From assembly GCA_938082375.1 (NCBI GenBank), contig CALKCJ010000015.1, forward strand, positions 62,001 to 126,000: DNA of 64,000 nt, written 5' to 3'. The translations under genes and the position numbers were made by a program. The notes below the pieces were generated by a model, which saw only the letters and a program-made list of their open reading frames with translations, ran no database searches and had not been told where the DNA came from. Shown in pieces: positions 22,232-54,525 of the stretch. Source of the stretch: an uncultured Thermomicrobiaceae bacterium. Its GTDB lineage: Bacteria; Chloroflexota; Chloroflexia; Thermomicrobiales; Thermomicrobiaceae. Position 1 is the stretch's first letter. Every line of letters begins with the position of its first letter.

Positions 22232-22336
22232 GCGCTCATCCAGAGTGGTGGAGGGAACGGCCCGAAGAAGCCCGGCAACCAGCGCGCATGCGCCAGGTGC
22301 CAATGCCGGCGGAGCGAGGCTCCGCACGATGAGCGC
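22232..22336 (+). ncRNA. SAM-I (S-box) riboswitch
   Basis: Closing stem P1 is formed by GCGCTCATC (22232-22240) and GATGAGCGC (22328-22336). Between them are the SAM-I core sequences GGAGGGAACGGCCCGAAGAAGC, with CCCGGCAACC following directly (about 22251-22280), and GGTGCCAATGCC (22296-22307). The GATGAG closing strand is diagnostic. Binding of S-adenosylmethionine stabilises P1 and favours the terminator at 22350-22375, shutting off metX when methionine is abundant. Confidence 0.93.
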
Positions 22337-24978: not shown

Positions 24979-26034
24979 GTGAGCGATCGGATCGACGTCG
25001 CGATTTTGGGTGCGACGGGCAGCGTGGGGCAGCGATTCGTGCAGCTCCTCGCCGGTCATCCCTGGTTCCGGGTGGCCGAGCTAGTCGGCAGCGAGCGCTC
25101 GGCCGGCAAGCCGTACCAGGAGACGTGCGACTGGCGGGTCAGCAGCGCCCCGCCGGACGAAGTGCGTGGCCTCAAGGTCAAGCATTACGAGGAACCGCTG
25201 CTGAGCACTGTCGTCTTCTCCGCCCTCCCAGGAGGGCTGGCCGGCCCGATCGAAGAGGGGCTGGCAGCCGAGGGAAAGCGGGTCTTCACTAACGCCCGCG
25301 ACCACCGGATGGATCCCGATGTGCCACTGATGATCCCCGAGGTGAACCCAGACCACGCAGCGGCCATCGAGCGCCAGCGCCGCGAGCGCGGCTGGCGAGA
25401 CGGCTTTATCGTCGCCAACCCCAACTGCTCGACCATCCACCTGGTACTGGCGCTCAAGCCGATCCACGATGCCTTCGGCATCGAGCAGGGGATCGTCACC
25501 ACGCTCCAGGCCGCCTCGGGGGCCGGCTATCCCGGCGTGCCGTCGCTCGACCTGATCGACAACGTCATCCCCCACATCGGCGGCGAGGAGGAGAAGATTG
25601 AGAGCGAGTCGCGCAAGATCCTGGGACACTGGGCAGACGGCCGTTTTGAGGACGCACCCCTTACGTTAAGCGCCCACTGCAACCGGGTACCGGTGCGCGA
25701 CGGCCACATGGAGACGGTCAGCCTGAAGTTGGCACAGCCAGCCTCGCCGCAAGAAGTTGCCAACGTCCTCGCCGAGTTTCGCGCTCGGCCACAGGAACTC
25801 GGCCTGCCCACGGCGCCGGCTCGCCCGGTCGTCGTGCTCGACCAGCCCGACCGGCCACAGCCCGTGCTCGACCGCGACGTCGAGCGGGGCATGGCCTCGG
25901 TCGTGGGGCGAATACGCCCCTGCCCCGTCTTCGACGTCCGCTTCGTGGTACTGGGGCACAACACAATCCGCGGCGCCGCCGGCGCTTCTATCCTGAACGC
26001 CGAACTGCTCTTCCGCGAGGGCTGGCTCGGCTGA
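24979..26034 (+). CDS. asd: Aspartate-semialdehyde dehydrogenase
   Basis: A 351-residue enzyme reducing aspartyl phosphate to the semialdehyde, the branch intermediate for lysine, methionine, threonine and isoleucine. The NADP site is ILGATGSVGQRFVQLL, and the active-site cysteine is in ANPNCSTIHL. SAHCNRVPVRDGH is the substrate-binding region and GHNTIRGAAG closes the fold. Together these resemble the archaeal/fungal-type ASADH rather than the E. coli type. Translation starts at GTG after GGAAGGAGG. A leader with an attenuator precedes it and a strong terminator follows. hom is transcribed divergently. Confidence 0.95.
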   Translation: MSDRIDVAILGATGSVGQRFVQLLAGHPWFRVAELVGSERSAGKPYQETCDWRVSSAPPDEVRGLKVKHYEEPLLSTVVFSALPGGLAGPIEEGLAAEGKRVFTNARDHRMDPDVPLMIPEVNPDHAAAIERQRRERGWRDGFIVANPNCSTIHLVLALKPIHDAFGIEQGIVTTLQAASGAGYPGVPSLDLIDNVIPHIGGEEEKIESESRKILGHWADGRFEDAPLTLSAHCNRVPVRDGHMETVSLKLAQPASPQEVANVLAEFRARPQELGLPTAPARPVVVLDQPDRPQPVLDRDVERGMASVVGRIRPCPVFDVRFVVLGHNTIRGAAGASILNAELLFREGWLG

Positions 26035-28406: not shown

Positions 28407-30017
<1,611 letters not shown>

Positions 30018-30042
30018 CGCCTGGCTCCTTTCCATGTACAGC

Positions 30043-30078
30043 TAAAACCTAGCGGCCTCCCGTTCTGGGGAGGCCGCT
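30043..30078 (-). terminator. Attenuator terminator of cimA
   Basis: On the minus strand, AGCGGCCTCCC (30078-30068 complement) and GGGAGGCCGCT (30061-30051 complement) form an 11-bp stem followed by AGGTTTT. It ends 26 bp before the GTG start of cimA and 30 bp after the leader peptide stop. Confidence 0.85.
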
Positions 30079-30107
30079 CGAACGTCGATCGCTTCCTAGT
30101 CGTACGG

Positions 30108-30248
30108 TCAACCGAGCCTGGGCGAGCCCCTCCCCAACGCCGAAAGCCCCGCCACGCGGGGCCGAATAATGCCAATAATAATCGCAGCGCCCCGGCTCAC
30201 GCGGGCCAGGGTCGCGAGCGTACCAGCTTGGGGATGCCCATCTCGCAT
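30108..30248 (-). CDS. Isoleucine-rich leader peptide of cimA
   Basis: An ATG at 30248 with GGGGAG upstream opens a 46-codon frame. Codons 23-28 read Ile-Ile-Ile-Gly-Ile-Ile, all five as ATT, which is a rare codon in this GC-rich genome. The frame stops at 30108, just before the terminator stem. A competing hairpin (GCCCCGC/GCGGGGC) begins directly after the Ile codons. This is the classic layout of ribosome-stalling attenuation: charged Ile-tRNA lets the terminator form, Ile shortage stalls the ribosome and allows read-through into citramalate synthase. Confidence 0.75.
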   Translation of the reverse strand: MRDGHPQAGTLATLARVSRGAAIIIGIIRPRVAGLSALGRGSPRLG

Positions 30249-30303
30249 GATACTCTCCCCATCTACGACGGCTAGTGGCAGCCTACTACAGACACGGTCG
30301 AGG

Positions 30304-30309
30304 TGTCAA
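30304..30309 (-). promoter_or_regulatory. -35 element for the cimA leader
   Basis: A perfect TTGACA on the minus strand (30309-30304). An 18-bp spacer leads to TAGGCT, a weak -10 box. The transcript would start about 30 nt before the leader peptide ATG. Confidence 0.5.
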
Positions 30310-30471
30310 GCCCGAGCGCCCGAACCTGCGCGGCATCAGCGAGACTTTGGTCGTCACACGCGAGCCCGGTTGCAAAGAAGAGTTGCCTCGCCGTCGCTTG
30401 CTCATCCCGCTGGCGGCATGCCCCTCACCAACACCCGCGCTCCATGCGCCGCATGGCCCCGGCGCCCGAGC

Positions 30472-32076
30472 CTACAGCGGAAAACAGACCGGCACGTCGA
30501 TGAGCGTCGGCCGGTCACGCTTCGTCGCTTCCACAACCGACTCGGCAAGCTCCTCCGGCGAGCCGGCCCGCACGGCCGGGATGCCATACGACGCTGCCAG
30601 CGCGACAAAGTCGGGGTTCACCAGGTCAACGGCGATGAAGCGCCGGTCGTACTCCCGCGCCTGTGCCTCCTTGACAGCGGTATAGGCCGAGTCGTCGAAG
30701 ATGACGATGGGGATGCCAAGCCGGAACTGCACGGCCGTGGCGAGTTCCTGCATCGTGTACTGGAAGCCACCGTCGCCCACCGCCGCCACCACCGTAGCCT
30801 CGGGACGCGCGATCTTAGCCCCGATCGCCGCTGGCAGCGCGAAGCCGAGCGTGCCGTAGCCAGTGGGGAAGAAGTAGGTGCGCGGCTGATAGACCGGATA
30901 GTGCCGGTTGCCAACGTAGCACATCATGGTCATGTCGTTGACCAGGATGCCATCCCTCGGGATCGCCGCACGCAGGGCTCGCATCCAGGCGGTGTGCTCG
31001 TGCCCCCATGACGAGGCAAGCGCTTGTCGCTTAACCTCCTCGACCTCGGCGACCGGCCAGGATGCCTTGCGAACCCCGCGCGACCGTAGCGCCTCCAGCA
31101 AGGCCCTGGCTGTCTCGCGCGCGTCGGCGACGATCGCCTGCGTCGGACAGTAGTTCCGTAGGATCTCTCGTGGATCGACGTCCACGCGGACCATCGTAAC
31201 AGGCAGTGGCATCTTTCCATCCGCGGTGTCTTGCGCGCCCAGCTTCGAGCCGAAGACCAGTGCCAGGTCTGCCTGTCGCAGCAGCCGGTCGACGGCATTG
31301 CCTGCTTCCCAGAGGGTGCCCAGGCAGAGCGGATGGTCCTCCGGCACAGCCCCCTTGCCCTGGATGCTGGTGAGCACCGGGGCCCCGAGCTGCTCGGCCA
31401 ACGCGACCAGCTCGGCGCTCGCCTCGTTGGCCACCGCGCCGCCGCCGCAGTAGAGGATGATCCGGCTCGCCCGCTCGATCGCCGCCGTCGCGAGCTCGAC
31501 TGCCGCTGCCGGTGGCGCCTGCCGATCCAACTGGACCGGACCAATCGACTCGAGGTCGACCTCGCCGTAGCCGCCCAGCACATCGAGCGGCACTTCGACG
31601 TAGGCCGGGCGCGGTCGTCCATGTGCCATCTGGCAGAACGCCTCGGCGATCAGCGCCGGAACTTCGTCGACCCGGCGAGCGCGACGGGCCCACTTGGTCA
31701 CCGCGCGCATCACGCCGAGCTGATCCTTCAGATCATGCAAGTGGCCGAGCATCTGTCCTTGCCACGGCTGGGCCACGTTCGAAGCAACCACCAGCACCGG
31801 TGAGGAGTCGGCATAGGCCTCGCCGATCGGGGTGGCGACATTGGTGACCCCTGGGCCGGTGATCACGATCGCGACGCCCGGGCGGCCAGAGGCGCGCGCA
31901 TAGCCGTCTGCCATGAACCCGGCTCCCTGCTCGTGTCGCGCCAACACGTGGCGGATCGGCGAGTCGTACAGCGCATCGTAGATCTCGAGCGTGTGGACAC
32001 CGGGGATGCCAAAGACGACCTCCACACCCAGCCGCTCTAAGCTACGGACAACTGCTTCACCACCTTGCACTCGCAC
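30472..32076 (-). CDS. ThDP-dependent decarboxylase/acetolactate synthase-like enzyme
   Basis: A 534-residue thiamine-diphosphate enzyme with the three-domain POX/AHAS fold. FGIPGVHTLEIYDAL and RHEQGAGFMADGYARA hold the catalytic glutamate, the middle domain is around residues 190-330, and VGDGGFQYTMQELATAVQF is the ThDP/magnesium motif, ending with DDSAYTAV. The N-terminal HTLEIYDAL wording resembles 5-guanidino-2-oxopentanoate decarboxylase (AruI)-type and benzoylformate decarboxylase-like proteins more than AHAS. No AHAS small subunit is adjacent. The 2-oxoacid substrate is undetermined. It starts at GTG after AGGAG. It lies upstream of cimA on the same strand, about 220 bp before the cimA leader, and probably has its own transcript. 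Confidence 0.8.
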   Translation of the reverse strand: MRVQGGEAVVRSLERLGVEVVFGIPGVHTLEIYDALYDSPIRHVLARHEQGAGFMADGYARASGRPGVAIVITGPGVTNVATPIGEAYADSSPVLVVASNVAQPWQGQMLGHLHDLKDQLGVMRAVTKWARRARRVDEVPALIAEAFCQMAHGRPRPAYVEVPLDVLGGYGEVDLESIGPVQLDRQAPPAAAVELATAAIERASRIILYCGGGAVANEASAELVALAEQLGAPVLTSIQGKGAVPEDHPLCLGTLWEAGNAVDRLLRQADLALVFGSKLGAQDTADGKMPLPVTMVRVDVDPREILRNYCPTQAIVADARETARALLEALRSRGVRKASWPVAEVEEVKRQALASSWGHEHTAWMRALRAAIPRDGILVNDMTMMCYVGNRHYPVYQPRTYFFPTGYGTLGFALPAAIGAKIARPEATVVAAVGDGGFQYTMQELATAVQFRLGIPIVIFDDSAYTAVKEAQAREYDRRFIAVDLVNPDFVALAASYGIPAVRAGSPEELAESVVEATKRDRPTLIDVPVCFPL

Positions 32077-54374: not shown

Positions 54375-54399
54375 CCCGGCCGCTGCATCAGCGGCCGGG
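54375..54399 (-). terminator. Intrinsic terminator of the receiver-like gene
   Basis: CCCGGCCGCTG pairs with CAGCGGCCGGG in an 11-bp stem with a 3-nt loop. On the minus strand it is followed by ATTTCTTTTCT. It ends transcripts from the small receiver-like gene. Confidence 0.85.
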
Positions 54400-54525
54400 T
54401 GCGCCACTGGCTCAGCGCGGGCCAGGCGCCCAGGCTACGGCCCGCGCGTCATCGCCTCCGCGTCTTCTGTCCACATACTAGTCGTTCAGCTCGCTGGCGC
54501 AATCCCGCAAATGAGCTACCGGACG

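Follow-up and report, generated by a model that had tools for sequence, protein, structure and literature searches.

What controls cimA, the citramalate synthase gene, in this uncultured Thermomicrobiaceae bacterium? In the window, by which we mean the whole 64,000-nt stretch of DNA that was analysed, the gene is preceded by a short open reading frame (ORF) rich in isoleucine codons and by GC-rich hairpins, which a first-pass annotation had read as a ribosome-stalling attenuator. Comparison with relatives, whose leaders have the isoleucine codons, a like geometry and pairings that exclude one another, supports this reading. Judging from the sequences, the leader very probably puts cimA under ribosome-mediated transcription attenuation in response to isoleucine.

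Layout of the cimA leader

The elements of the leader follow one another in the order promoter candidate, ribosome site, ORF, hairpin 1, region 2, stop codon and GC-rich hairpin. They are located as follows:

30304-30309 (-): TTGACA, candidate -35 element, found by eye; TTGACA or TTGACG is at the equivalent place in relatives
30280-30285 (-): TAGGCT, candidate -10 element, found by eye, 18 nt spacer from the -35; kept in relatives
30255-30260 (-): GGGGAG, candidate Shine-Dalgarno sequence of the leader ORF
30108-30248 (-): leader peptide ORF, 46 codons, ATG to TGA, from the ORF list; Ile-rich counterparts in all family members with cimA
30165-30182 (-): putative regulatory Ile block, ATT ATT ATT GGC ATT ATT, unique in the window
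30146-30162 (-): hairpin 1, GCCCCGC-GTG-GCGGGGC, near-invariant in two alignments; putative pause hairpin
30129-30140 (-): region 2, GCGTTGGGGAGG, 5' strand of the antiterminator; pairs with CCTCCCC(AG)AACG at 30073-30061
30051-30078 (-): regions 3 and 4, terminator hairpin AGCGGCCTCCC-CAGAAC-GGGAGGCCGCT, -25.3 kcal/mol; conserved in relatives
30043-30050 (-): imperfect U-tract, AGGTTTTA, 4 T in 8
28407-30035 (-): cimA, citramalate synthase, TIGR00977 match of 692.6 bits (cut-off 450)

The leader ORF and its start signals thus sit between a candidate promoter and cimA, as would be expected of an attenuator. At the same position in relatives, TTGACA or TTGACG is followed 17-18 nt on by TAGGCT or a similar sequence; a consensus scan of 29900-30500 listed neither a promoter nor a terminator.

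The 46-codon frame described in the first-pass annotation, with ATT at five of six consecutive codons, is present (30248-30108, block 30182-30165), and its 46-aa peptide reads MRDGHPQAGTLATLARVSRGAAIIIGIIRPRVAGLSALGRGSPRLG. The annotation had also placed a competing hairpin right after the Ile codons. A hairpin is indeed there (30162-30146), but the competitor is the next strand (30140-30129), with which hairpin 1 shares nothing.

The product of the downstream gene is a TIGR00977 equivalog, and the leuA gene of the same genome sits at a different locus; with Ile codons ahead of cimA, the amino acid presumed to be sensed matches the pathway, as had been claimed. The CimA protein is 96% identical to that of Bacterium HR26, the nearest named genome. 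The true start of cimA may be the GTG at 30017 rather than the ATG at 30035, because AAGGAG (30030-30025) is positioned for the GTG.

Directly upstream of the leader, the window encodes a thiamine-diphosphate enzyme of the acetolactate synthase superfamily (30472-32076, minus strand; above the NF005712 cut-off), and coding DNA resembling it precedes the leader in several relatives (e.g., L003, L005, L007, L009, L011 and L012). Elsewhere in the window are a cyclic di-GMP-II riboswitch (54384-54468, minus strand; RF01786, 60.8 bits) and an aspartate-semialdehyde dehydrogenase gene (24979-26034, plus strand) that matches asd_EA (TIGR00978) far better than asd_B.

Conservation of the Ile codons and of the pairings

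The family set consisted of 15 genomes with cimA from four genera of the same GTDB family, the window genome included. Fourteen of the leaders were read adjoining cimA. In G015 the gene is truncated where its contig ends, so its row (L016) was dropped, and the leader was read from another contig (L121) that runs into the cimA start.

An Ile-rich leader, with four or five Ile in eight residues, is present at all 15 cimA loci. The comparison of relatives had been set beforehand as the test that could refute the attenuator, and the leader came through it. At least four Ile in eight residues occurred in 15 of 15 family leaders. The same threshold was reached by none of 64 cimA upstream regions from the other families in this class, and by 83 (1.7%) of 4,860 shuffled upstream sequences. 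Summed over the 15 leaders, the Ile codons are 50 ATT, 21 ATC and no ATA. A run of codons for the amino acid of the cimA pathway is therefore conserved, as an attenuator would require.

It might be argued that the frame is there by chance, lying over a spacer or a constitutive terminator, and 46 codons alone would be unremarkable in GC-rich DNA. The conservation in every family member with cimA refutes this explanation, and the shuffles also speak against it, so that we find it hardly credible. When the 265-nt leader was shuffled 20,000 times with its dinucleotides preserved, five Ile in seven ORF residues never arose (the maximum was four, reached seven times), and the block is the only site in the 64-kb window, all frames of both strands considered, where five or more of six codons are Ile. 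ATT is uncommon, as had been stated: 30 long ORFs from the window contain 585 Ile codons, of which 60 are ATT, 510 ATC and 15 ATA. The overall fold of the leader is only mildly better than that of the shuffles (z -1.58).

The geometry is conserved as well. The last Ile codon lies 29-33 nt from region 2 in all 15 leaders, and the stop codon is 3-18 nt past region 2, also in all 15; in the window the distance is 18 nt, at which masking of region 2 would be borderline.

The peptide itself is a different matter. The residues past the Ile block (RPRVAG) are conserved in many family members, which might suggest that a nascent IIxII peptide arrests the ribosome by its specific sequence, in response to a signal other than the isoleucine supply. 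We consider this very improbable. In G005 an additional G within hairpin 1 puts the sequence past the Ile block into another frame, by which the downstream peptide is altered and the RNA arms are retained; upstream of the block the peptides vary among the members. Furthermore, the ilvB and leuA leaders described below carry other residues that match their own pathways, and the peptides before cimA in family f35 and in an Anaerolineae genome are unrelated except for Ile.

What the family does retain, as the first-pass annotation had asked to be checked, is the alternative stems. In the predicted RNA fold before region 4 is made, regions 2 and 3 form at least eight pairs in 13 of the 15 leaders, the exceptions being G005 with two pairs and G018 with none. 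The 2:3 duplex was equalled by no more than three of 300 shuffles in 11 of the 15 leaders, and by 13 of 300 in the worst case. Some of the antiterminator changes are paired: CGTT/AACG in G000 and G003 corresponds to CGCT/AGCG in G001 and G002. In genus g4 the helix is extended on the other side, e.g., GGGAGGCATC with GATGCCTCCC in G010. The predicted folds and the paired changes both indicate that the antiterminator and terminator pairings are mutually exclusive, which is another property of an attenuator.

Known RNA families do not cover the leader. Rfam gave no match over it at the gathering threshold and, up to an E-value of 10, three matches that were all below gathering; a T-box core or stem I was absent at gathering and at permissive thresholds. 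Likewise, four of the leader peptides matched no NCBIfam family at E-values up to 1.

Proposed mechanism and the question of the terminator

The trp, his and ilvGMEDA attenuators of enterobacteria have a leader peptide rich in codons for the end product, and the position of the ribosome decides the outcome. The cimA leader resembles them in its end-product codons and in its alternative antiterminator and terminator. It differs in its target, cimA, in its weak U-tract and in hairpin 1, which looks like a pause hairpin and not like a 1:2 lock.

We infer the stalling, pausing, termination and isoleucine response of the leader to take the following course. The polymerase would probably pause at hairpin 1 and wait there for a ribosome to move into the leader ORF; on its arrival the ribosome would melt the hairpin. 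With Ile-tRNA plentiful, the ribosome would pass the Ile block and reach the stop codon, where it would mask region 2; regions 3 and 4 would then pair and transcription would end ahead of cimA. With Ile-tRNA short, the ribosome would stall on the Ile codons, over the foot of hairpin 1, and region 2 would be free to take region 3 as it emerges, so that the terminator would be blocked and cimA made.

Because hairpin 1 and region 2 have no strand in common, hairpin 1 probably serves as a pause hairpin by which polymerase and ribosome stay synchronized. The same property provides a point against the attenuator: when no ribosome is present, hairpin 1 leaves region 2 unlocked, and therefore an untranslated leader should read through, unlike that of trp.

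The chief doubt, and the weak point of the attenuator reading, is the U-tract. The first-pass annotation had described a strong terminator before cimA, which is correct for the stem (about -25 kcal/mol), but the tail after it is AGGTTTTAG and, as noted above, the consensus scan listed no terminator. Four of the eight tail positions are T in the window, and the remaining 11 leaders from genera g1, g3 and g6 have 0-4. By contrast, the SAM riboswitch of the window (22233-22335, plus strand; RF00162, 85 bits) is followed by a hairpin with a clean TTTTT. The members of genus g4 have long U-tracts at the equivalent place; the T counts recorded for them are underestimates, since the script took the U-tract as belonging to the stem. 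In genera g1 and g6 the T-runs of the T-box terminators are comparably short, and this softens the objection of the poor U-tract without removing it.

These poor U-tracts, found in most family members, together with the untranslated RNA between the end of the leader ORF and cimA, would fit a system with the same leader and the same sensing whose output is assisted by Rho, i.e., the GC-rich hairpin would pause the polymerase for Rho, or else would alter mRNA stability. We regard such an output as unlikely, although it deserves to be taken seriously. Long U-tracts are present at the equivalent place in the g4 members and in the Anaerolineae leader, and exclusive 2:3 and 3:4 pairings would be needless for Rho.

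Since the hairpin is no more than about 40 nt away from the cimA start and ribosomes coming off the leader could reinitiate, control might also be exerted on translation, with translation of the leader opening or closing the cimA start. This is a good deal less probable than a Rho-assisted output. Both the AAGGAG and the start codon are outside the hairpin, and the g4 and Anaerolineae U-tracts point to transcription.

Sister leaders and other lineages

If cimA has a transcription attenuator that reads Ile codons, it may not be the only branched-chain gene of the family with a codon-reading leader. Candidate leaders rich in Ile, Leu and Val precede ilvB at 18 of 18 family loci, by a motif that was loose, and the 2:3 complementarity was reached by no more than three of 200 shuffles at 11 of the 18. 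These candidates (L142; L130-L147) have a GAGCCTCCC...GGGAGGCTC hairpin and lie within about 400 nt of ilvB.

For leuA, a T-box core followed by a Leu-rich leader was found at 13 of 17 loci; three of the remaining loci, from genus g4, were unreadable and one (L168) had only 80 nt upstream. L168 was dropped, as were five g4 leuA rows in which the gene motif was not found (L152, L153, L157, L347 and L348). The 2:3 complement beat the shuffles (at most three of 200) at only three of the 13 leuA loci and at none of seven loci of family f35; in this shuffle test of the sister and f35 leaders the script chose the wrong upstream ORF or hairpin at several loci (for example, L158, L167, L321, L188 and L131), and these rows are kept in the counts.

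By Rfam, the leuA T-box scores 105.6 bits in G004, over gathering, and 89.6 bits against a threshold of 93 in the window genome, just under it. In both alignments the specifier would presumably be CUC, leucine, by the usual rule. A T-box directly followed by a Leu-codon leader with its own hairpins can be seen at L002 (the window's own genome, C19, about 995-1480), L112-L114 and L116-L118. Thus leuA seems to carry two different sensors of one amino acid, leucine, in series. Like the cimA leader, the leuA T-box (RF00230) of the same genomes ties a branched-chain gene to the charging state of a tRNA; the T-box reads the tRNA directly, whereas the cimA leader has no T-box match. It would appear from these leaders that every branch of the pathway in this family is regulated through codons for what that branch makes.

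No Ile leader was seen before an ilvA-like gene at any of the four loci with the gene motif (seven were tried); three of the four are from the genus of the family that lacks cimA. A search of 21 family genomes with TIGR01127 (threonine deaminase) gave matches just below the cut-off and none over it, and so ilvA may still be present.

Do the three leaders have a common origin? Of 14 cimA leaders, 12 went into an RNA model, R1; L014 and L015 were omitted because the aligner misplaced their terminators. R1 matches leuA leaders with E-values of 3e-6 to 3e-4 and an Ile/Leu/Val leader in G236 with an E-value of 6e-5. The G236 leader heads a run of genes reading ilvB-ilvC-leuA-leuC-leuB-cimA, where the names other than cimA were assigned by eye. 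This run (L367, G236:C4:423000-434900, and L148), with leader peptide MFVPLVLLNLVLVVLLSLLVIIIGKEPARVGKAASTGW, is possibly the ancestral arrangement.

The R1 matches to leuA leaders and G236 suggest, though they do not prove, that a single operon leader gave rise to several re-coded copies. Under this scenario, which is quite possible though somewhat short of probable, the ilvB, leuA and cimA attenuators descend from the leader of a former ilv-leu-cimA operon; when the operon broke up, each piece would have kept a copy of the switch, with the codons re-set to the product of the branch, namely Ile in the case of cimA, Leu in that of leuA and all three amino acids in that of ilvB, and leuA would have either acquired or retained a leucine T-box. 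Among the weak R1 matches in the phylum, G236 is an ilvB leader; G431, G405 and G445 are not leaders by their surroundings and were set aside. L115, L119, L120, L122-L124, L126, L127 and L129 from the class search were set aside likewise.

Outside the family, 243 cimA upstream regions were examined (64 from the class, 79 from named genomes and 100 sampled from the phylum, with some overlap possible between the sets) for at least four Ile in eight residues of a short ORF within 350 nt. Ten of them pass, where about four would be expected by chance from the 1.7% of shuffles. Six of the ten belong to family f35, i.e., six of the seven f35 loci that were read; in the seventh, L344, the Ile run is shorter. 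In these six (L321, L322, L329, L340, L345 and L346) cimA is preceded by short ORFs rich in Ile and by hairpins resembling terminators, the RNA sequence being unrelated, and in L340, L345 and L346 the Ile codons themselves are within a potential hairpin. Three more of the ten (L221, L222 and L224) look like chance on reading. Rows were dropped for too little upstream sequence (L072, L258, L285 and L288), for a stretch beyond the leader (L286) and for a gene motif that was not found (L356).

The last of the ten, the uncultured Anaerolineae genome mentioned above (L188), has a canonical attenuator before cimA: MSAGLIASPNSIIIRIIAGISISIIRYMETLAVGRE is followed by GGTTGGGAGA, which pairs with TCTCCCAACC, and by the terminator CCCACCGGTTCTCCCAACCGGTGGGTTTTTATTTT with a textbook U-tract. 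A relative has the same hairpin on a contig that ends before the ORF.

Similar leaders are known from another phylum. PMC10272879 and PMC11857589 describe, for the Corynebacterium ilvBNC uORF (ilvB-II motif), a leader peptide with Ile, Leu and Val codons and a terminator plus antiterminator. It shares with the cimA leader a leader peptide and terminator/antiterminator ahead of a branched-chain gene, and differs in phylum, gene and RNA sequence and in reading three amino acids; it is closer to the ilvB leaders of the family than to the cimA leader. According to PMC1262725, Actinobacteria have leader peptides before ilvB and leuA, as this family does, some with parts of the attenuator missing; the LEU element of the same source is a pseudoknot whose mechanism is doubted, unlike the cimA leader. 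The main text of PMC1262725 does not mention cimA or Chloroflexi.

In open-licence PMC full text, we found no description of a leader peptide or attenuation for cimA or citramalate synthase, nor any for leader peptides in Chloroflexi or for a tandem of T-box and leader peptide at leuA. These papers do not contradict the earlier statement that Ile-codon attenuation at cimA is undescribed, and we provisionally consider it so in print. The mechanism is classic; for the present, it is the gene, cimA, and the phylum that appear to be new.

In conclusion, codon-reading attenuation can now be placed, with the confidence expressed above, on the citramalate route to isoleucine, and in a deep phylum. 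The poor U-tracts pose a testable question about how transcription terminates in such lineages. The three leaders of a single genome, each with the codons of its own branch, would provide a natural experiment on how codons track the output of a pathway.
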